Assembly (NCBI GenBank): GCA_019752925.1
Contig: JAIELP010000005.1
Coordinates: 62,001 to 126,000 of the forward strand
Length of the DNA stretch: 64,000 nucleotides
Reading direction: 5' to 3'
DNA from: a bacterium
GTDB taxonomy: Bacteria > Bdellovibrionota > Bdellovibrionia > Bdellovibrionales > Bdellovibrionaceae
The notes under the pieces are model-generated. The model had not been told where the DNA came from and did not search any database. It was given only the letters and a program-made list of their open reading frames with translations. A program made the translations under genes and the position numbers. Below are positions 23,353 to 35,364 of this stretch, one piece after another; within the stretch, counting starts at the first letter, position 1, and each line of letters starts with the position of its first letter.

Positions 23353-24774
23353 CTAGCTAAAGTCTTTTACGTTAATAGAGTATTTTCTAATTTTTCTGAG
23401 TAAAGTATTTTTTGGTATATTAGCCTGGGCAACAGTCTGATTAATTTTACCTTTGTTGGCTTTAAGAGCGCTTATAATAAATTCTTTTTCAGCTTGCTCC
23501 TTGAATAATTCAAAATTCAGAGGTTCCGAAGACGTAGCTGCAGTTGCAGGTTTTGTGCTCGCACTCGGCGCCACTGTATTAATCGTAGAGTCGACTTTAA
23601 TCTGATCCGGCAAACTGGTTTTTGTCATAACAGATGAAGACTCCACGATGAAAGCGCGTTCAACTATATTTTCAAGCTCACGGATATTTCCAGGCCAACG
23701 GTATTTTTTCATCAGCTCTAGGCATTCAGGATCGATGGAATTAATCTGCTTACCGTGTTCTTTAGAAAACTTCTGTAAAAAGCTGGTAGCTAAAACCGGA
23801 ATGTCATCAGGTCTTTCACGTAAAGGCGGAAGAAAAATCGGCATAACATTTAAACGGTAAAATAAATCTTCACGGAACTCCAAGGTTTCCATCATTTTTT
23901 CTAAATTACGATTAGTGGCTGCAATAATGCGGGCGTTAGTTTTAACTTCGCGGTTGCTGCCAACAGGAGTAAATTTTTTCTCTTGCAGAGCTCTTAAAAT
24001 TTTAACCTGCATCTCAGGTTTTAATTCGCCAATTTCATCTAAAAATAAAGTGCCGTTATTGGCTAACTGGAATTTACCGATTTTTCTTTCTACAGCTCCG
24101 GTAAAGGCACCTTTTTCGTGACCGAAAAATTCAGATTCCATTAAATTTTCAGGAATCGCGCCACAGTTGATTGCAACAAAAGCGCCACTTTTGCGAGGGG
24201 AGTTGAAGTGAATGGCACGGGCAACTAACTCTTTGCCGGTACCGTTTTCACCTCTAATTAGAACAGTGGTTTCAACTTTACAAAGTTTGTAAATTAAATT
24301 GAAAACCTCTTTCATTTTTGTATTGTTGCCAACAATTTCACTCTCGATATCATCGTCAAAAATAGGATTAGAGGCGGTTAAGTTAGAGATCATTTCATGA
24401 GCTTCTAAACTTTTTCTTACGATGTCGGTTAATTTCTCAGGGCTTACCGGTTTTTCTACATAGTCGTAGGCGCCGTCCTTAATAGCGAGAACTGCATCAT
24501 TCAAATTAGAATGCGCTGTCATAATAACTACGAATGTGCGTGGATCATGTTCTTTGATTTCTTTTAATGCATCAAGGCCGTTCATTTCCGGCATACGCAC
24601 ATCCATCAGAATTAAATCAAAAGGATGTTGCTTTACTTTATCAAGAGCTTCTTGGCCATTGCTGGCTTCTTCGATATCAAAATCAATTTGCAGATTAGTA
24701 TTTTTAAGAATAGAAACTACCGATTTTCTCAGTTCTGCTTCGTCATCCACAATAAGTGTTTTTAATTTCACCAT
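23353..24774 (-). CDS. NtrC-family sigma-54-dependent response regulator
   Basis: Receiver 'LIVDDEAELRKS...LILMDVRMPEMNG', AAA+ 'GENGTGKELVARAIH', 'ESEFFGHEKGAFTGA', C-terminal HTH. Confidence 0.95.
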   Translation of the reverse strand: MVKLKTLIVDDEAELRKSVVSILKNTNLQIDFDIEEASNGQEALDKVKQHPFDLILMDVRMPEMNGLDALKEIKEHDPRTFVVIMTAHSNLNDAVLAIKDGAYDYVEKPVSPEKLTDIVRKSLEAHEMISNLTASNPIFDDDIESEIVGNNTKMKEVFNLIYKLCKVETTVLIRGENGTGKELVARAIHFNSPRKSGAFVAINCGAIPENLMESEFFGHEKGAFTGAVERKIGKFQLANNGTLFLDEIGELKPEMQVKILRALQEKKFTPVGSNREVKTNARIIAATNRNLEKMMETLEFREDLFYRLNVMPIFLPPLRERPDDIPVLATSFLQKFSKEHGKQINSIDPECLELMKKYRWPGNIRELENIVERAFIVESSSVMTKTSLPDQIKVDSTINTVAPSASTKPATAATSSEPLNFELFKEQAEKEFIISALKANKGKINQTVAQANIPKNTLLRKIRKYSINVKDFS

Positions 24775-24792
24775 GTTTTACCTCTGTACGTT

Positions 24793-26643
24793 TTAAGTAC
24801 TATTTGTATCAGTTGTTTCAATAGGCAGCTTTACCAAAAATGCAGTGCCTTTTTTCAGCTCTGATTTCATTGAAATCTGTCCACCGTGAAGCTCAATAAA
24901 GTATTTCACCAAATATAAACCAAGTCCAGTGCCCTTGGTTTTGTAATCCTGTGATTTTCCTCTAACAAATTTTTTCCAAACCAATTCCTGATCTTCAGGT
25001 GCTATGCCTTCACCGCTGTCTTCTATTTCAACGCAGACATCAGTATCAGTTTCAAAAGACCGTATTGTGACGCGTCCTGATTCAGGAGTGTACTTGATAG
25101 CATTTTCAATAATATTTAAAAAAACTTCTGTCATGAGCGTAACGTCTATTTCGATCAGAAACATAGGTTCCAGATTAAGATAGAGCTCTATTTTTTTAGA
25201 GCGGGCTAGCGGGCTTAAGCGTTCAACTACATTTTCAATTATGCCGTTAATGTCTGCTGTTTCTTTTAAAATTTTAAAATCACGCGATTCAACACGCAAT
25301 ACTTTTAAAATAGACTGGATGTAACGGTTCAGTTCTTCGGAGTAGTCTTTAAGGCTGGATAAATCCGACTGTAGTTCCGGAGTCAACGGGCCTTGAGCAA
25401 GCACTCGATCCAGTACTGCTTGAATTTTAGCAATTGGAGTTTTCAGGTCGTGACTGATAAGGCTAACGAAATTATTTTTAAGCTGTTCTAGTTCGGCTAA
25501 ATAATTTTGCTGCTGTTGCAGGCGGGCATGAGCTTGTTCTATTTTTAAAGCCTGGTGGCCGATGAAGAGTACCCATACAAAAATAAATAGACTCATAGGG
25601 CTTACAATTGGTATCCAGATGTAGAAGCCATCAAATATCCATGCTGAAAAGGCGGCGCTCAGTGTTGCAAGCCAAACTAAAAAGAACAATGCGATGGCTT
25701 GTGGGTAGCTTGTGATAATTAAAATCGCAAAACACGTAAGGATTAGTAAAAAACCGGCATAAACTCCGCTTGAAAGTTTTTTAATAAAGCTGTGTGATAC
25801 AATATTTTCAGTAACTGTGGCCCAGAATTCATGGCGTGATAAAACCCCGATTGGTGTTTGTACCTGTGAGTTAATAGATTTCTCAGCACCTATAATGACA
25901 ATTTTATTTTTAAAAAAATCTTTAGGTAAATCGTTGCTTAAGACGTCTGAAAGAGAAACTTCCTGAAAAAGATGATGCCCCTTGTAATTAATTATCGGCA
26001 GACTTGAGGTCGTATGCTTGGTCAATACGGGCAGCATGCGTTCAGCAATGTTAGGAATAATGGAGTCGGGTGAAACGATTAAGCGTCTAACAACTCCGTC
26101 ATCGTCTTTCACTGTGTCGATATGTGCAATATTGGAACGGTCGGCTTTGGTAGCGATAGGAAGTGATAATTTTTCCGGTTCGTTGGAGTTGGCAGCCCAA
26201 ATAACTCTTGGGTCTTTGAAGGCTATAATTTCCTGAGTGGTTAAGCGAAGCTGGCCAACGTTGTCGCCGAAATAAAGAGTAATTCCCACTTTGGCGGGAT
26301 TGTCGGCCAGAACTTTTGTTAGAAGATCTTTCCAGAGGTCTCGGTCCCAGTAAAAGCTGTCGCTTAAATCCGATAGCTCGTTGGTGTTAATCAAACTGCT
26401 GGTTTTCAGATCATACATCTTAGAAAACTCAGTGTTTTTCAGGGTAATCAGTATAATGTTTTGAGATACTTTTTGGTCACCACGTAGTTGATAGCGGATG
26501 TCGTAGTTACCGTTTTCGTCGAACATTAGGAAAAAAAGCGAAAAAACCCAACAAAGGAGGGCTCTGAGCAAAAAGCCGCGTCTTTGATACAGCCAGCGCA
26601 TCCAAATAGAGATTCGAGATAAAGATTTTTTCACGCAACGCAA
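24793..26643 (-). CDS. CHASE2-domain sensor histidine kinase
   Basis: N-terminal CHASE2-like region plus 3 TM; 'LISHDLKTPIAKIQAVLDRV', 'NIIENAIKYTPESG', 'GTGLGLYLVKYFIELHGG'. Confidence 0.9.
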   Translation of the reverse strand: MRCVKKSLSRISIWMRWLYQRRGFLLRALLCWVFSLFFLMFDENGNYDIRYQLRGDQKVSQNIILITLKNTEFSKMYDLKTSSLINTNELSDLSDSFYWDRDLWKDLLTKVLADNPAKVGITLYFGDNVGQLRLTTQEIIAFKDPRVIWAANSNEPEKLSLPIATKADRSNIAHIDTVKDDDGVVRRLIVSPDSIIPNIAERMLPVLTKHTTSSLPIINYKGHHLFQEVSLSDVLSNDLPKDFFKNKIVIIGAEKSINSQVQTPIGVLSRHEFWATVTENIVSHSFIKKLSSGVYAGFLLILTCFAILIITSYPQAIALFFLVWLATLSAAFSAWIFDGFYIWIPIVSPMSLFIFVWVLFIGHQALKIEQAHARLQQQQNYLAELEQLKNNFVSLISHDLKTPIAKIQAVLDRVLAQGPLTPELQSDLSSLKDYSEELNRYIQSILKVLRVESRDFKILKETADINGIIENVVERLSPLARSKKIELYLNLEPMFLIEIDVTLMTEVFLNIIENAIKYTPESGRVTIRSFETDTDVCVEIEDSGEGIAPEDQELVWKKFVRGKSQDYKTKGTGLGLYLVKYFIELHGGQISMKSELKKGTAFLVKLPIETTDTNST

Positions 26644-26695: not shown

Positions 26696-27628
26696 ATGAA
26701 ATGGATACGTTCACAGGATGAGGCCATCCCTCACTTTAAATCGTCAGTATTGACTATAGGAAGCTTCGACGGAGTTCACTTAGGTCATCAAAAGCTATTA
26801 AGTACGTTAGTGAGAGTGGCGAAGGAAAATAATACAGACTCTGTAGCTCTTACATTCCGCCCACACCCCCGTGAGATACTTCGCCCAGACCAGCCTCACA
26901 ATCGCATGTTTGACCATAAAGATCAGGTTGAAATGATGGCTCAATTAGGTGTTTCTTGTCTGGTTGAAGAAAAGTTCAGTAAAGATTTTTCTCTGATGAG
27001 TGCCGATGAATTTTTAACGGGTTATGTAGAAAAAATATTTAATCCCGTTCATATAGTTGTCGGTTACGATTTTAGTTTTGGTAAATCTCGCGATGGTAAC
27101 ATTGAATCATTAACGGCATACTGTTTGAAGCGCGGCATAGGCCTTACAATAGTAGAAGCTTGTGAGTTGGGTGGCCAGATTGTTTCGTCTTCACAAATTC
27201 GCAATTTTCTTGAAGTAGGTGAGCTAGAAAAGGCTATGGAATTTTTAGGTCGTCCGTATTACTTACGAGGACCAGTGCGGGTTGGTTACAAGCGCGGGCG
27301 TGTGCTTGGGGTTCCGACCGCAAACATCAGTCCTGAAATCGTATTTGTACCGCGCAAAGGCGTGTATTTTACGTGGGCTTATCTTGGCGACAAAAAGTTT
27401 CCTTCCATTACCAACATTGGCTACAATCCTACCTTTGAAACTTCAGACTCTTACCTGAAAGTCGAAACACATATTTTTAATTTTGATCAAGATATTTACG
27501 GCGAGCATATGAAAGTTGAATTATGTAAGTTTCACCGAGATGAAATGAAATTTAACTCGATTGATGCGTTGAAGTCTCAAATTTTCAGCGACCTTCAAGT
27601 TGCAAAAAAATATTTCGGTATTATATGA
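26696..27628 (+). CDS. ribF: Bifunctional riboflavin kinase/FAD synthetase
   Basis: 'LTIGSFDGVHLGHQKLLSTLV', 'YDFSFGKSRDGN', 'GVPTANISPE...VPRKGVYFTWAYL'. Confidence 0.95.
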   Translation: MKWIRSQDEAIPHFKSSVLTIGSFDGVHLGHQKLLSTLVRVAKENNTDSVALTFRPHPREILRPDQPHNRMFDHKDQVEMMAQLGVSCLVEEKFSKDFSLMSADEFLTGYVEKIFNPVHIVVGYDFSFGKSRDGNIESLTAYCLKRGIGLTIVEACELGGQIVSSSQIRNFLEVGELEKAMEFLGRPYYLRGPVRVGYKRGRVLGVPTANISPEIVFVPRKGVYFTWAYLGDKKFPSITNIGYNPTFETSDSYLKVETHIFNFDQDIYGEHMKVELCKFHRDEMKFNSIDALKSQIFSDLQVAKKYFGII

Positions 27629-28389
27629 AATATAAAATTTATAATTTGCTTGATCCGCGTGAAATTGAAAAAAATAAAAATGTAAAATGTGTTAAAGAAA
27701 ATTTCGAAATTATATCTGATGGCGAAATGCCGGCGGCGGCACTCATTGCAAAAAAATATAGTGCTATTGAAATTTCAGGTGAAAAATTTAACGAATTCGA
27801 ACCTTATATTACGGCAGTTGACTGGCGCACCAGCCAGGTTTCAACTCTAGATTGCTTAATTTTACAGAATGGAAAGTATAAAGCTTATCATCTGCTTGCA
27901 GATTCTATTTTACGAATTTTAAAAAAAATGCCTGACCGGGTAAACTCACAGCGTCCAGTTATTGTTATTGGTGACATATATTTTTTATACAGTGTTGTAA
28001 CTAAGTTGGCTTTGAGTGGATTTGTAGAAATTATTGTATCCCTGACTGATGAAGAAGATGCAATGCTTAAAGTGTTTGAGCAAAGAATTAAATCTTTTGT
28101 TTTTGATTTAAATCTTAAAACAGTTTCGATTAATGATCTGACAACAACAGAGCAGGCGGGTTATCTTTTGATATCAAACTTCCGCAAGGAAGATAACAAA
28201 GATGCCTATGAGCTTTTAACCTATTTTAACTTCCTTGCTGAAGGGGCTATTTTTATGGACTGTAACTCGATAAATGACAGTTATTTAGTCGATGATGCAA
28301 GGAAAGCAGAGATCTTTGTCATCGATGAAGAGCAGGTCCTGGAAAGTAAATATGATTACTTGCTTGAAATATTAAAAAACTCACCCTAA
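27625..28389 (+). CDS. Uncharacterised protein, possibly a degenerate shikimate-dehydrogenase-like fold
   Basis: 254 aa; ATGA overlap with ribF. Layout loosely resembles AroE (N-terminal domain, then 'RPVIVIGDIYFLYSVVTKLALSGFVEIIVSLTDEE' in place of the Rossmann GAGG motif). Confidence 0.45.
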   Translation: MKYKIYNLLDPREIEKNKNVKCVKENFEIISDGEMPAAALIAKKYSAIEISGEKFNEFEPYITAVDWRTSQVSTLDCLILQNGKYKAYHLLADSILRILKKMPDRVNSQRPVIVIGDIYFLYSVVTKLALSGFVEIIVSLTDEEDAMLKVFEQRIKSFVFDLNLKTVSINDLTTTEQAGYLLISNFRKEDNKDAYELLTYFNFLAEGAIFMDCNSINDSYLVDDARKAEIFVIDEEQVLESKYDYLLEILKNSP

Positions 28390-28429: not shown

Positions 28430-30130
28430 ATGTTGCCGAATAAGTTGGGTGAAATTTTAGTTAAGCAAGGAATGTTGCGTCCGGATCAACTTCAAGCTGC
28501 GTTAACAGAAACTCAACGTACTAAAGGCCGACTTGGCCCAACACTTATTGCCGCCGGTATTCTTAAAGATAATCAAATATTACGCGCACTTGAAAAACAA
28601 TATGCTTTGCCTGGCGTTGACGTTTCCCAATTCGAAATTGATCAATCCGTTACAACCCTTGTCAGTCGCGAGTTCTGTGATAAACATTGTGTTGTTCCCC
28701 TATCAAAAGCTGGAACAACACTTGTTGTTGCCTTTTCAGATCCTAGTAATTTGCAAGTACGCGATGACTTGCGCTATTTAAGTAAATGTAAAATTCAGCC
28801 TGTAGTCGCAACTGAATCGACGATTATGCAGGCTATTGCAAAATACTATTCTATCTCTACAGATGAGCTGATTTCTAAGGGTGACGCAGCAGAAGCCGAA
28901 ATTCAGCTAAGTACAAAAACATCTACTGTTGAGGTGGGTGGCTCAGCCGCTGACGACGCGCCGGTAGTTAAATTCGTGAACGGAATTTTGCTGGAGTCAA
29001 TTCGCCGCAGAGCTTCTGATATCCATTTTGAAATTTATGAAAAAAAATACCGCGTAAGATTCCGTATCGATGGTAACTTGGTTGAAGCAGCATCGCCGCC
29101 AATCACTTCGGGTGCCGCGATCAGTTCACGTATTAAAATCATGTCCAAAATGGACATTGCCGAGAAACGCCGTCCGCAGGATGGTCGTTTAAAAATCGTT
29201 CTAAATAAAGAAAATCGCGAAATGGATTTTCGTGTGAGCTCTGTGCCGACAATGTGGGGCGAAAAAATCGTTATGCGTCTTCTTGATAAATCTAATCTTC
29301 AGCTTGATATGACAAAGCTTGGTTTTGAAGAAGAAGATCTTAAATTGTTTAAAGATTGTATTAATTTGCCTCAGGGAATGGTGTTGATTACAGGGCCTAC
29401 GGGTTCGGGTAAAACGACAACAATTTATTCTGCATTATCTGAACTAAATAAAATTGATGTGAATATCAGTACGGCTGAAGATCCTATCGAGTTCAACCTT
29501 GAAGGTATCAATCAGGTACAGATGAATTCCGATATTGATCTGACCTTCTCCAATGCTCTTCGTGCTTTCTTACGTCAAGATCCCGATGTTATTATGGTGG
29601 GGGAGATACGTGACTTAGAAACAGCCGAGATTGCTTTTAAAGCGGCCTCAACAGGTCACATGGTTGTAAGTACTCTGCATACTAACGATGCTCCGACAAC
29701 TATTACACGCTTAACTGAAATGGGAGTTCCTTCATACCTCATCACTTCAACTTTAAATTTGGTTGTAGCTCAGCGTCTTGTTGGGCGTATGTGTGAATCA
29801 TGTAAAGAACCTGTAAAAGTACCTGATGATATACTTTTAAAATTAGGTGTAGCTCACGAAGAGTTACATAAATTTAATGTTCACAAAGCCAAAGGTTGTA
29901 ATGCCTGTAATAACACCGGGATAAGAGGTCGACTGGCTATTTACGAGCTTATGCCTATTAATGAACAGATTAAGGACGCTATTCTGAGAAATGCCAGCAG
30001 TAATGAGCTTCGTAACATTTGTCGTACGATTGGCGTGCGCACATTGAGACGTAGTGCTTTATTAAAATTAGCTCGCGGACAAACATCAATTGAAGAAGTA
30101 ATCAATGCATCAGTAAGGGACGACGTATGA
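28430..30130 (+). CDS. pilB: Type IV pilus extension ATPase PilB (GspE/PulE family) with N-terminal MshEN-like domain
   Basis: 'LITGPTGSGKTTTIYSAL', 'DPDVIMVGEIRDLETAEIAFKAASTGHMVVSTLHTNDA', tetracysteine 'CESCK...CNACNNTGIRGR'. Confidence 0.95.
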   Translation: MLPNKLGEILVKQGMLRPDQLQAALTETQRTKGRLGPTLIAAGILKDNQILRALEKQYALPGVDVSQFEIDQSVTTLVSREFCDKHCVVPLSKAGTTLVVAFSDPSNLQVRDDLRYLSKCKIQPVVATESTIMQAIAKYYSISTDELISKGDAAEAEIQLSTKTSTVEVGGSAADDAPVVKFVNGILLESIRRRASDIHFEIYEKKYRVRFRIDGNLVEAASPPITSGAAISSRIKIMSKMDIAEKRRPQDGRLKIVLNKENREMDFRVSSVPTMWGEKIVMRLLDKSNLQLDMTKLGFEEEDLKLFKDCINLPQGMVLITGPTGSGKTTTIYSALSELNKIDVNISTAEDPIEFNLEGINQVQMNSDIDLTFSNALRAFLRQDPDVIMVGEIRDLETAEIAFKAASTGHMVVSTLHTNDAPTTITRLTEMGVPSYLITSTLNLVVAQRLVGRMCESCKEPVKVPDDILLKLGVAHEELHKFNVHKAKGCNACNNTGIRGRLAIYELMPINEQIKDAILRNASSNELRNICRTIGVRTLRRSALLKLARGQTSIEEVINASVRDDV

Positions 30131-31146
30131 TAGAAAACCTGTTAGAAATGTCGGTTTTTAAAAATGGTCATGAGATTTCTTTTATTCTCGGTCATAGAGT
30201 TTTGTCAAAATCGGGACGAGACTGGAATGAAGTTAAGGGTGAACCACTTTCGGTCAATGAATGGGAAGATTTAAAAGATCTTTGTCTTCTTGGTAATGAA
30301 AAAGTACAACTTGAAACCAAGGGTTATGTAGTCGGAGTTTACGAATCTAAAAAGTATAAATGGAAATTTTCATTCATAGAGCGCAAAGACTGCTTTAGGG
30401 CTCACCTGAGTTTGGTTAAAACTCAGGAAGAAACTTTATCGCAAATAGAAAACCCTTTATTTTGGGATACAGTTAAAAAAGAAAAAGGTCTTTTTATTGT
30501 AGCTGGCGAAAGACGTCAGGGAAAAACAGCGTTATTGCACGAGATTATAACGAATGACCAAAAACATAAGTTGTCGCTTGTCGGTATACACTCCGCTGTT
30601 CAAAACCAGAGCTGGGGAGAAATAGATTTAGTTGTGCAACTCGGCATCGATACTTTAGAATTGGATTTTAATCATATTTTGTACGAAGGTGTGGAAAGAA
30701 TTATTGTCGACACCAATTCAATTAAAAACTGGAAAAAATGGATTGAAATTGCAGAACAGGGACAATGTGTAATTTTGACGATAAGTTCAAACTCAGTTAA
30801 AACTATTCTGAATAAACTCACTTCTGAGCTAGACGCAAGCACTGCACTTAGATTATTTAATGTTTTAAATGGAATAGTTGTGCAGAAATTAGTTGGGCCA
30901 ACTTATCATCCCTGCAGCGAAATATTAATTATTAAAGAAAATCAGAAAAATGTTTTTAGCGAGTACCTTCAAAATAAAAACATTTCAGCAATAAATCTAG
31001 GACAGGAATTTAAAGAATCCTATCAGTCGTTGAATCAGGCTATTATCCAGAAACTTATTCGTCGAAAAATCGATGTGCAAGCGGCCTTCGACTCCTCTGA
31101 TGACCCTGAATCATTAGATGCCAATCTTAAGAAAATGGGGCTTTGA
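30127..31146 (+). CDS. PilT-like protein, highly divergent (degenerate retraction-ATPase homologue)
   Basis: Lies in the pilT slot between pilB and pilC; Walker A 'VAGERRQGKTALLHE'; PilT-like tail 'QKLIRRKIDVQAAFDSSDDPESLDANLKKMG'; other ATPase boxes not conserved. Confidence 0.7.
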   Translation: MIENLLEMSVFKNGHEISFILGHRVLSKSGRDWNEVKGEPLSVNEWEDLKDLCLLGNEKVQLETKGYVVGVYESKKYKWKFSFIERKDCFRAHLSLVKTQEETLSQIENPLFWDTVKKEKGLFIVAGERRQGKTALLHEIITNDQKHKLSLVGIHSAVQNQSWGEIDLVVQLGIDTLELDFNHILYEGVERIIVDTNSIKNWKKWIEIAEQGQCVILTISSNSVKTILNKLTSELDASTALRLFNVLNGIVVQKLVGPTYHPCSEILIIKENQKNVFSEYLQNKNISAINLGQEFKESYQSLNQAIIQKLIRRKIDVQAAFDSSDDPESLDANLKKMGL

Positions 31147-31149
31147 TAA

Positions 31150-32379
31150 ATGGCTAATTTTATATATCAGGCTAGAACCATTACAGGAAGCTTAGCAAAA
31201 GGAAAAGTCGAAGCCCGAGATGAAGCTGATGCGCGCATTAAATTGCGTGCTAAGCAATTAATTGTTGTTAAACTGACTGTTGCTACGGCTGATCAGATGA
31301 AGGGAGGCGAGTTTGAAGAAGCCATTAAAAAACTTATGGCTCCTAAGGTTGACACTAAAGAACTTAAAATTTTTACTCGCCAATTTTCTACATTAATTAA
31401 TTCAGGTATTCCTATTGCGGACGCACTTAAAATTCTTTCTGAGGGACAAAGTAGTCGTTTACTTAAAGAAACATTGATACAAATTCGAGCTTCCATCGAT
31501 ATGGGACGTAGACTTTCTGATTCGATGATTATTCATGAGCGTGTATTTGATAGATTATATTGTAATATGATTCAAGCCGGTGAAGAAGCCGGTATTATCG
31601 ATACAATTTTATTACGACTTTCAACCTATATCGAGAAAAATGAAAAAATTAAAAGCCAGGTAAAAGGTGCGCTTGTGATGCCACTATTAATTATGATAGT
31701 AGCGTTCATCGTTATTACTGGTATCATTGTGTTTATTATTCCAAAATTCCAGGAGTTTTACGCAGGTTCCGGAAAGGCGTTGCCTTTATTAACTCAGTTG
31801 ATTATTGATTTATCGAATACCTTGCGTGCTAAATGGTTTGTTTACATCTCGGTACTAGTTGGAGTTATTGGAGCGGTTACATATTATATCAATACACCTG
31901 AGGGTAAGAAAAACCTTGATATTACATTAATCAATGCTCCGGTTATAGGTGATGTGGTTCAAAAATCCAGCGTGGCGCGTATGACACGTACTTTGTCGAC
32001 ATTATTGTCTTCGGGTATCGGTTTAATTGAAGCGATTGAAATCGCATCCAGAACGGCAGGAAATTATGTTATCGAAAAAGCCTTGGCCGATTGTAAAGAG
32101 GCTGTGACTGTAGGTAAACCTTTCCATGTTCCTCTATCAAGACAAAAAGAAATACCCATGATGGTTTCGCAGATGGTTGGTATCGGTGAGCAGTCTGGTT
32201 CTTTGGATATTATGTTAGGTAAAATTGCTGATTTCTATGAGGAAGAAGTTGAAACAGCAGTTAAAGCCATGACATCTTTAATTGAACCTTTAATGATGGT
32301 TTTCCTTGGTGGTCTTATAGCGATTATTCTAGTTGCCATGTATCTGCCGATCTTCAGTCTTGGTGATACAATTGGATAG
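31150..32379 (+). CDS. pilC: Type IV pilus inner-membrane platform protein PilC (GspF family)
   Basis: 'FIYQARTITGSLAKGKVEARDEADA', 'FTRQFSTLINSGIPIADALKIL', 'EPLMMVFLGGLIAIILVAMYLPIFSLGDTI'. Confidence 0.95.
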   Translation: MANFIYQARTITGSLAKGKVEARDEADARIKLRAKQLIVVKLTVATADQMKGGEFEEAIKKLMAPKVDTKELKIFTRQFSTLINSGIPIADALKILSEGQSSRLLKETLIQIRASIDMGRRLSDSMIIHERVFDRLYCNMIQAGEEAGIIDTILLRLSTYIEKNEKIKSQVKGALVMPLLIMIVAFIVITGIIVFIIPKFQEFYAGSGKALPLLTQLIIDLSNTLRAKWFVYISVLVGVIGAVTYYINTPEGKKNLDITLINAPVIGDVVQKSSVARMTRTLSTLLSSGIGLIEAIEIASRTAGNYVIEKALADCKEAVTVGKPFHVPLSRQKEIPMMVSQMVGIGEQSGSLDIMLGKIADFYEEEVETAVKAMTSLIEPLMMVFLGGLIAIILVAMYLPIFSLGDTIG

Positions 32380-32388
32380 GGAGTAGAA

Positions 32389-33948
32389 TTGACTCAAACG
32401 ATGGGGTTTAACTTTTTAGGTAACGCTTATGCAAGACGTATTATACGTATTGTAACGCTGTTTATTTATTTTGTTATATTTCAGTCGTTGATCTTGTTGC
32501 AAAAACCATTTTTACAGTTTGATTTCATCATTGTATTTTATATGGCTTTTGGCGGTTTGTTTGCGCATCATCTGTTTTACCAATTTTTCCGACCTGAAAA
32601 CCTGCATAAAAAAAGTGGAGTATTTTCATACCTTTTTGACTTTCTTATTTTAATACTTTTTATGAAGTATTTCCCGTATTTGTCGAGTTTCATATTAGTG
32701 TTACAGCTTTTCTTGTTATTTGTGGCCAGCTTTGATCTGGATTTTTTTGAGCTTTCGCTACTTGGTTTTATAGCATCTCTAGGCGCTTCAGTTATTAATC
32801 TTTCGACGCATCAGTCAGGCTCTATTCAAAGTATACTTTCACTTACTTTATTTAATCTTTCTTATTTATCTGTGATAATAGTATCGCGACAGTTGCGGGC
32901 TGAATTTTTTAGTTTACAGACCGATCTTACGCAAACTCGTAAAAAATGGAAATCTCAGGAAGAATTTTCAAAAACTCTAATCGAAAAAATTCCTTTCGGA
33001 TTAGCCGTTTTAAATAACAGAGATTTTGTGTTGCAGAACTCTCAGTTAAAAGAAAAATTGAAGTTGTCTGCAAATCGCGTAAACGAGCTGATTGATATTT
33101 ACAGAATGCGCCAAAACAGTAAAAACTCAGATATTTCTCATTTAAATGATTTGTCAGAAAAAAGAATTTTCAGCTTTGATCAAACCCCGTACTTTGATGA
33201 AGAGATTAATGAAAACTTGGATATCTATCTTATCCGCGATGTAACTGAAGTTCGTGCTCTGGAAAATCAGTTGAAGCAAAGTGAAAAATTGGCAGCAGTT
33301 GGAACCTTGGCTGCCGGCATTGCTCACGAAATCCGTAACCCTCTTGCAGGAATTAGCGGAAGTATACAGATGTTGTCGCAAGATTCTTCTGATCCGACTC
33401 AGAGAAAATTAATGGATATAGTGTTGCGTGAAATTGACCGTTTAAATTTACTTATTACTGAATTTTTGGACTATGCTAAGCCTGAAAAAGCTCCGGATAC
33501 GGTTATTAACTTGGCTCAGGTGCTTGAAGAAGTTGTAGCAAATACTCGACGTCATCCTGATGTTTCTGAAAACTTTAAATGGACCGTAGATCTTAAGCCG
33601 GCCAATATTCTGGGTTTTCCTGAAAAACTGAAGCAGTCGTTTTTAAATATTATTATCAATGCTATCCAGGCTATGAAAAATGTAAGCTCTCCGAGTTTGG
33701 AGATTATACTTTCTTCTGATGACAAATACGCAATCTTGCAAATTAAAGACAGCGGTTCCGGTATGACGGAGGAAACCAAGAAAAAGATGTTTGAGCCATT
33801 CCATACCACAAAGCCTAAAGGTACTGGTCTTGGTTTGGCGATTACCCATAAGCTTTTAGAAACACACAGAGCTGAGATTGAAGTTAAAACAGCTTTAAAT
33901 GTTGGAACTGAATTTATAATTAAAATTCCCTTAGCGAAGGGTCTATAA
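32389..33948 (+). CDS. pilS: PilS-like sensor histidine kinase
   Basis: Six N-terminal TMs, 'LAAGIAHEIRNPLAGISGSIQML', 'GTGLGLAITHKLLETHRAEI'; next to pilC and pilR. Confidence 0.9.
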   Translation: MTQTMGFNFLGNAYARRIIRIVTLFIYFVIFQSLILLQKPFLQFDFIIVFYMAFGGLFAHHLFYQFFRPENLHKKSGVFSYLFDFLILILFMKYFPYLSSFILVLQLFLLFVASFDLDFFELSLLGFIASLGASVINLSTHQSGSIQSILSLTLFNLSYLSVIIVSRQLRAEFFSLQTDLTQTRKKWKSQEEFSKTLIEKIPFGLAVLNNRDFVLQNSQLKEKLKLSANRVNELIDIYRMRQNSKNSDISHLNDLSEKRIFSFDQTPYFDEEINENLDIYLIRDVTEVRALENQLKQSEKLAAVGTLAAGIAHEIRNPLAGISGSIQMLSQDSSDPTQRKLMDIVLREIDRLNLLITEFLDYAKPEKAPDTVINLAQVLEEVVANTRRHPDVSENFKWTVDLKPANILGFPEKLKQSFLNIIINAIQAMKNVSSPSLEIILSSDDKYAILQIKDSGSGMTEETKKKMFEPFHTTKPKGTGLGLAITHKLLETHRAEIEVKTALNVGTEFIIKIPLAKGL

Positions 33949-33957
33949 GGAGCACAT

Positions 33958-35364
33958 ATGAAGTCACGCATTTTGGTGGTAGACGATGAAGAATCGATCC
34001 GCGAGTTTTTAGAGATCATGCTGAAAAAAGAAAATTATGAAGTTACTACTGCCGAAGACGGTCTGCGTGCTAAAGAAATTCTGTCAAAAAAATCATTTGA
34101 TATGGTTATTTCTGACATGCAAATGCCGAATATGACGGGTATTGAGCTTTTGAAGTATGTAAAAGAAAGCTATCCCGATATCGTATTTATGATGATTACA
34201 GCTTTTGGCACAACAGAAACTGCTGTAGACGCAATGAAGATGGGTGCTTACGACTACGTGACGAAGCCATTTAAAATCGATGAAGTAAGACTTAATATTG
34301 CGAATGCGTTAAGATCCAAAAATCTGGAAACAGAAGTACGTGTGCTTAAAAAAGAAATGGTCAAAGAGTATTCTTTCCAGAACATGGTGGGTAACTCACC
34401 GGCTATGCACGCAGTATTTGATCTGGTCAAAAGAGTTTCTCAGGCTCCGACAAATATTTTAGTAACTGGTGAATCCGGAACAGGTAAAGAGGTTGTTGCT
34501 AAAGCCATTCACTACAACGGCCCTTTAAAAGACAGACCTTTTGTGACTATTAACTGTGGTGCTATTCCTGAAAACTTAATGGAATCGGAAATGTTTGGTC
34601 ATAAAAAAGGTTCATTTACTGGTACGATTGTAGATAAAGCCGGTTTATTTGAAGTTGCTGACGGTGGTACATTATTCCTAGATGAGGTAGGTGAGTTACC
34701 TATGTCAATTCAGGTTAAGTTACTTCGTGCTATTCAAGAAAGAATTATCCGCAGAGTAGGTGCTACGGATGATATGAAAGTAGATGTACGTATTATCGCT
34801 GCAACCAATCGTAACCTAGAAGACATGGTTGCAAAAGGCAGTTTCCGTCAGGATTTATTTTACCGTTTGAATGTAATCGGTATAAGAACACCGGCGTTAA
34901 GAGAAAGAGCTGAAGATATTCCTCTTTTAGCGAATCACTTTCTGAAAAAATATAATGAAAAGCTGAATAAAGCTATTGCGGGCATTTCAACTGAGGCTAT
35001 GGAAATTTTAAAAGGATATAATTACCCGGGCAATGTGCGTGAACTTGAAAATATGATTGAAAGAACAGTGGCTCTTGAGGCCGGTTCGACAGTATTACCT
35101 GAATCTTTACCACCGATTGTCAATACAACTTCAGGCCGTAAAATGGCTTCCAGTAATGAAATCGAGATGGGAGATAACGGTCTTGATTTAGATAAAGTAA
35201 TGGGTCAGATCGAAAAAGAACTTTTGATTAAAGCCATTCATGCTGCAGGCGGAGTTAAAAAGAAAGCGGCCAAGTTATTACATATTTCATTCAGATCCAT
35301 GCGCTACAGAATTGAAAAATATAATCTCGGTGTTGTGGGTGATGACGAGCTCGATGACGAATAG
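33958..35364 (+). CDS. pilR: PilR-like NtrC-family response regulator
   Basis: 'ILVVDDEESIREFLEIML...MVISDMQMPNMTG', 'GESGTGKEVVAKAIH', 'GHKKGSFTGT'; SD AAGGAG. Confidence 0.93.
   Translation: MKSRILVVDDEESIREFLEIMLKKENYEVTTAEDGLRAKEILSKKSFDMVISDMQMPNMTGIELLKYVKESYPDIVFMMITAFGTTETAVDAMKMGAYDYVTKPFKIDEVRLNIANALRSKNLETEVRVLKKEMVKEYSFQNMVGNSPAMHAVFDLVKRVSQAPTNILVTGESGTGKEVVAKAIHYNGPLKDRPFVTINCGAIPENLMESEMFGHKKGSFTGTIVDKAGLFEVADGGTLFLDEVGELPMSIQVKLLRAIQERIIRRVGATDDMKVDVRIIAATNRNLEDMVAKGSFRQDLFYRLNVIGIRTPALRERAEDIPLLANHFLKKYNEKLNKAIAGISTEAMEILKGYNYPGNVRELENMIERTVALEAGSTVLPESLPPIVNTTSGRKMASSNEIEMGDNGLDLDKVMGQIEKELLIKAIHAAGGVKKKAAKLLHISFRSMRYRIEKYNLGVVGDDELDDE

Follow-up and report, generated by a model that had tools for sequence, protein, structure and literature searches.

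The pilT slot of the pilB-pilT-pilC-pilS-pilR operon in a Pseudobdellovibrio genome encodes a PilT-family protein, PilT1, that has lost the catalytic boxes of a retraction ATPase other than Walker A, and a degenerate protein of this type is found in the slot throughout most of the taxonomic family. Its substitution pattern indicates that the gene is kept by purifying selection and is not decaying neutrally, and a second, canonical PilT (PilT2, Bd3852 type) is encoded elsewhere in the genome. The explanation we lean toward, by a modest degree, is that PilT1 is a modulator acting at the PilC motor port without hydrolysing ATP, while PilT2 carries out the retraction. PilT1 of B. bacteriovorus has already been reported to be without catalytic motifs, and a regulatory role has been proposed for it (Chanyi & Koval 2014); new here are the extent across the family, the intact relatives that occupy the equivalent slot, an ordered erosion with a constant C-terminal tail, and a caveat on the published deletion.

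The pilT1 gene and its operon

The analyzed window, the whole stretch of 64,000 nucleotides, contains pilT1 as the second gene of the operon (Table 1). Its ATG overlaps the pilB stop codon as ATGA, and pilC begins 3 bp past its own stop. The first-pass annotation had placed an open reading frame in the pilT slot between pilB and pilC, next to an intact PilB; the frame is real, and the neighboring PilB is a strong match to the type_IV_pilB model. Upstream, a 254-aa ORF at 27625-28389, with no Pfam match at E 0.01, lies between pilB and a ribF-like ORF (26696-27628). A CHASE2 sensor histidine kinase adjoining a sigma-54 response regulator (23353-26643, minus strand) forms, shortly before the pilus operon, a second two-component pair.

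Table 1. Genes of the pilus operon and features of the encoded PilT1 (positions in the window)
Feature	Position	Strand	Basis
pilB, extension ATPase	28430..30130	+	783 bits to TIGR02538
pilT1, catalytically degenerate PilT-family protein, 339 aa	30127..31146	+	ORF; PilT homology; AlphaFold/Foldseek; family slot clade
N2-like N-terminal domain, residues 1-100, strongly diverged; Arg positions are K78, K80, S95	30127..30426	+	alignment; model secondary structure
Walker A GERRQGKT, residues 127-134, kept	30505..30528	+	sequence
Asp box (EDPIE position), residues 157-161, lost (A157, V158, Q161)	30595..30609	+	catalytic-position scoring
Walker B strand, residues 191-196, without a GE box (D195 for the Gly, T196 for the catalytic Glu)	30697..30714	+	scoring; strand in model
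His-box region, residues 213-220, both His lost (Q213, S220)	30763..30786	+	catalytic-position scoring
PilT4-type C-terminal tail, residues 297-339, best conserved part in the family	31015..31143	+	alignment
pilC, inner-membrane platform protein	31150..32379	+	T2SSF and PilC models
pilS-type histidine kinase	32389..33948	+	HisKA/HATPase; gene order as published for B. bacteriovorus
pilR-type sigma-54 response regulator	33958..35364	+	Response_reg, Sigma54_activat

Fold and catalytic boxes of PilT1

The homology of the window PilT1 to PilT is remote but significant. The two comparisons with PilT that the first-pass annotation had proposed, by HMM and by structure prediction, both point to the same family: in a profile search residues 2-328 match TIGR01420 with E 5e-9 and 35.9 bits, well short of the curated cutoff of 319.1 bits, and an AlphaFold model (mean pLDDT 87.5) has the predicted two-domain fold of PilT, with PilT4 of Geobacter metallireducens as the best PDB matches in Foldseek (E 6e-22, TM 0.75). 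The best PDB match by sequence is Geobacter PilT 5zfq (E 1e-6). A Pfam scan of 25 aligned slot sequences for an alternative domain family gave none that was consistent, only weak AAA matches. A misassigned remote homolog that is not a PilT is ruled out by the fold, the operon slot and the tree described below.

Ten positions besides Walker A (three Arg, three in the Asp box, the Gly and Glu of the GE box, and two His) were scored against canonical PilT2 and intact slot PilTs, and the window PilT1 keeps none of them, nor therefore any of the eight in the Asp box, His box and Arg set. Its Walker A conforms to GxxxxGK[ST], and the atypical Walker B (Dh4GE) with its catalytic Glu is missing. The picture drawn from the sequence at first reading, of a retained Walker A, lost GE and His boxes, a strongly diverged N-terminal half and a PilT-pattern C-terminal tail, thus holds in each of its parts; the loss of catalysis is wider than was listed, since the Asp box and the Arg residues have gone as well. 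Judged by these residues, ATP hydrolysis by the window PilT1 is very unlikely.

A canonical PilT2 is encoded elsewhere

That a canonical PilT might be found elsewhere had also been suggested, and a genome search locates one in the window genome at G000:C7:148052-149053 (483 bits). TIGR01420 is matched in all 66 family genomes, so that a canonical retraction ATPase is available; the match is above the cutoff in 65 of them, the exception (G019) being a genome that is 88% complete. PilT2 belongs to the same protein family as PilT1 and nearly every family genome carries a canonical copy, but it differs from PilT1 in having all boxes intact and an unlinked locus. Its best PDB match is P. aeruginosa PilT, it is without the PilT4-type tail, and it evolves far more slowly: over long times PilT1 and PilT2 retain, respectively, 72% vs 97% identity (G000-G044), 41% vs 87%, and 23% vs 81%.

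Family-wide distribution and selection

The degenerate slot protein occurs in 62 of the 66 genomes of the family and sits between pilB and pilC wherever both neighbors were fetched. Among the four genomes without a match, G032 and G034 (g9) have pilB followed directly by pilC with no pilT1 remnant; in G033 and G037 pilB was not found above the family cut-off, and therefore the pilus locus is probably missing from those assemblies. Box scoring covered 57 family sequences from 56 genomes, one of which contributed two pieces. At most one of the ten non-Walker-A positions is kept in 53 of these sequences, the Walker A Lys is kept in 26, and a Glu stands at the catalytic column in a single sequence (G035), there without the Gly or His residues. 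The earlier label "degenerate" is accordingly apt as regards the lost boxes, but not if taken to mean a one-off or a decaying gene, since the condition is family-wide, conserved, and already described as PilT1.

Most pairs with usable dS give a pilT1 dN/dS of 0.02-0.16. The four closest Bdellovibrio pairs lie at 0.02-0.03 and two Pseudobdellovibrio pairs at 0.024 and 0.035, close-pair values being within the range of pilB and pilC; values of up to about 0.22 come from distant pairs, where dS is near saturation. The open frames in all fetched genomes together with the low dN/dS rule out a pseudogene. Conservation is concentrated in the tail, residues 297-339, whose mean majority-residue fraction is 0.63 as compared with 0.34-0.46 elsewhere in the protein. 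N303, F321, D331 and G338 are invariant in all 22 full-length slot sequences, and W33, which is new relative to the intact slot PilTs, is present in 21 of the 22. ATP binding is not the common function of the family slot proteins, because several genera have lost Walker A even as selection maintained the gene. The first-pass interpretation, a putative nucleotide-binding pseudo-ATPase or regulatory subunit, is right in outline and supported in part, namely for the loss of catalysis as judged by sequence and for the canonical PilT elsewhere.

Origin and stepwise erosion of the slot protein

In 15 genomes of ten neighboring families of the same order or class the slot PilT is intact, keeping every box as well as the C-terminal tail seen in PilT1, and the four such genomes whose second locus was fetched all have a PilT2-type protein as well. 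An intact neighboring slot PilT scores 456 bits against Geobacter PilT4. The window PilT1 has its fold, operon slot and tail in common with the PilT4/slot PilTs of Geobacter and the neighboring families, but it has lost all of their catalytic boxes except Walker A and is only ~15% identical in a structural alignment. In the tree the degenerate slot proteins form one clade (support 100/100) that is joined to the intact slot PilTs (97/86), with PilT2 apart; the stem branch of the degenerate clade is long (1.01), and attraction artefacts may affect the 97/86 placement. Descent from a duplicated PilT2 was rejected on this placement, with which the shared operon slot and tail agree. The intact slot PilTs of neighboring families and the tree together place the loss of catalysis in this gene at or close to the base of the family.

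Later losses can be counted on a pilB+pilC tree, on which Walker A status needs 4 changes and full, truncated or lost status needs 3: the N-terminal domain disappeared once in g12 and once in g19+g20, and the whole gene disappeared in g9. The reduced slot protein of g12, g19 and g20 is a C-terminal domain of 208-249 aa encoded right after pilB (L062 in G038, L050-L054, L057, L063), and it models as the PilT C-terminal domain (pLDDT 90.1, TM 0.86 to PilT4). This series, from intact to no catalysis, no Walker A, no N-domain and finally no gene, distinguishes the portions of a PilT that hydrolysis requires from those retained for another purpose.

Relationship to Bdellovibrio bacteriovorus Bd1510

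The window ORF is the Pseudobdellovibrio ortholog of Bd1510, the PilT1 described by Chanyi and Koval (2014) in an operon with pilB upstream and pilC, pilS and pilR downstream (PMC4237445). It lies between pilB and pilC and upstream of pilS and pilR; it belongs to the single 100/100 clade that includes g4 (the genus of G003) and stands apart from PilT2 and the intact slot PilTs; and it has lost its boxes in a genome with a separate canonical PilT2. The two proteins are alike in operon slot, clade, lost catalytic boxes and C-terminal tail, but are only 25% identical. Bd1510 was reported to be without Walker A or other PilT domains, the Walker B box excepted, with PilT2 (Bd3852) canonical (PMC4237445); its Walker A segment reads GPGEAGQV, in agreement with that statement, whereas the window PilT1 retains the motif. 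Both pilT genes are present in B. exovorus (PMC4237445).

Deletion of pilT1 in B. bacteriovorus made predation slightly faster and partly restored the biofilm predation of a pilT2 mutant, and pilT1 mutant piliation was 8% by EM and 33% by immunofluorescence (PMC4237445). For Bd1510 a regulatory function, a PilU-like role in stability, or the regulation of a protease was proposed (PMC4237445). In a later screen a pilT2 (Bd3852) mutant was defective in prey attachment and killing (PMC6561027), and both bd1509-1512 and bd3852 are expressed at a lower level in host-independent strains than in attack phase (PMC3818213). The published pilT1 primers exactly match one fetched genome, G003 (L040:1986-3026, B. 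bacteriovorus pilT1), and the primer positions imply an in-frame deletion in which residues 1-46 are fused to the last 31 residues, HLIRRRVDLKTAFEVSRDPDNLDQLLKKVGI. If the primer table is read in this way, the mutant would keep most of the conserved tail, which makes a specific re-test possible.

Possible functions of PilT1

A modulator at the motor port is favored because PilT1 is retained under selection between pilB and pilC with its fold and tail conserved, and because deletion of its ortholog partly suppresses the pilT2 defect. PilT1 would descend from a PilT4-like slot retraction ATPase, which neighboring families keep intact; the hydrolysis machinery of this ancestor would have been lost on or near the family stem, with the unlinked PilT2 keeping the retraction role. 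The PilT-fold body and conserved tail may dock on the PilC platform and/or on PilB or PilT2 hexamers, and docked PilT1 could then bias which motor engages, as a brake or a competitor. An interaction between PilB and PilC has been reported, with PilC proposed as the rotor shared by PilB and PilT (PMC5424180). The missing ATPase activity, the docking and the direction of the effect are what we infer; a regulatory role, which rests on the published genetics of the ortholog, is most likely. The partial rescue of the pilT2 mutant and the slightly faster predation fit an antagonist. Against a modulator count the absence of pilT1 from g9, which makes the gene dispensable in some lineages, and the mild, partly contradictory mutant phenotypes; moreover, the PilU-like stability and protease regulation put forward by the original authors differ from motor competition.

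PilU of Pseudomonas and Vibrio is also a second PilT-like protein beside a working PilT and has a similar fold (9n32), but PilU has intact Walker A and B motifs and a gene adjoining pilT, whereas the window PilT1 has lost Walker B and has pilB and pilC as neighbors. In V. cholerae, retraction by PilU requires PilT, for which an ATPase-dead PilT suffices (PMC6762196). This is a good precedent for an inactive PilT1 that links the active PilT2 with the pilus machinery, and the retained PilT fold and PilT4-type tail would suit such an adaptor; nevertheless we consider it rather unlikely, given that the B. bacteriovorus pilT1 deletion is unlike the pilT2 deletion and partly suppresses it (PMC4237445), and that g9 genomes have PilT2 without PilT1. 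The genetic part of this argument is weakened because the published deletion leaves the last 31 residues.

Two further explanations have a low probability. The far faster evolution of PilT1 than PilT2 (as in the G000-G044 pair), the repeated loss of Walker A, two truncations and one gene loss would all be expected of a relic of the ancestral slot PilT decaying with little or no function, but dN/dS is low in most pairs, the frame is open in all fetched genomes, the tail is nearly invariant across the family, and new near-invariant residues such as W33 have arisen. Improbable to a like degree is a signaling protein acting away from the motor to control predation functions such as secreted hydrolases, as Chanyi and Koval suggested; the faster predation of the pilT1 mutant and the partial suppression of the pilT2 defect (PMC4237445) agree with it, but the gene holds strictly to its pilB-pilC position wherever both neighbors were fetched, and the protein has gained no new domain.

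An acidic residue (Asp or Glu) occupies the GE-box Gly position in 50 of 55 family sequences. It is equally frequent in those without the Walker A Lys (27 of 30), and across the family sequences no association between this acidic residue and Walker A status was seen. Because it is present with or without the Lys, it more probably plays a structural role than forms a restored Mg site. That PilT1 is still an ATPase through shifted residues, with this one as a conventional Walker B Asp beside the intact Walker A of the window protein, is therefore highly improbable, the catalytic Glu, Asp box, His box and Arg residues being absent.

Returning to the modulator, a broader and more tentative proposal may be made: throughout the family, PilT1 possibly regulates the type IVa pilus motor with no need for ATP hydrolysis and, in several genera, with no need for ATP binding or an N-terminal domain either. 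Its essential part would then be the PilT4-type tail, and in this group, some of whose members are predators, a motor ATPase would have been taken apart step by step until a docking module remained. Bdellovibrio predation depends on type IVa pili, and the conserved dead subunit encoded in the motor operon offers a concrete candidate for a regulator.

The window genome also has a second PilB/GspE-like ATPase gene (L002, G000:C9:111111-112766), followed by a PilC/GspF-like gene with none between; this couple is probably a type II secretion pair.
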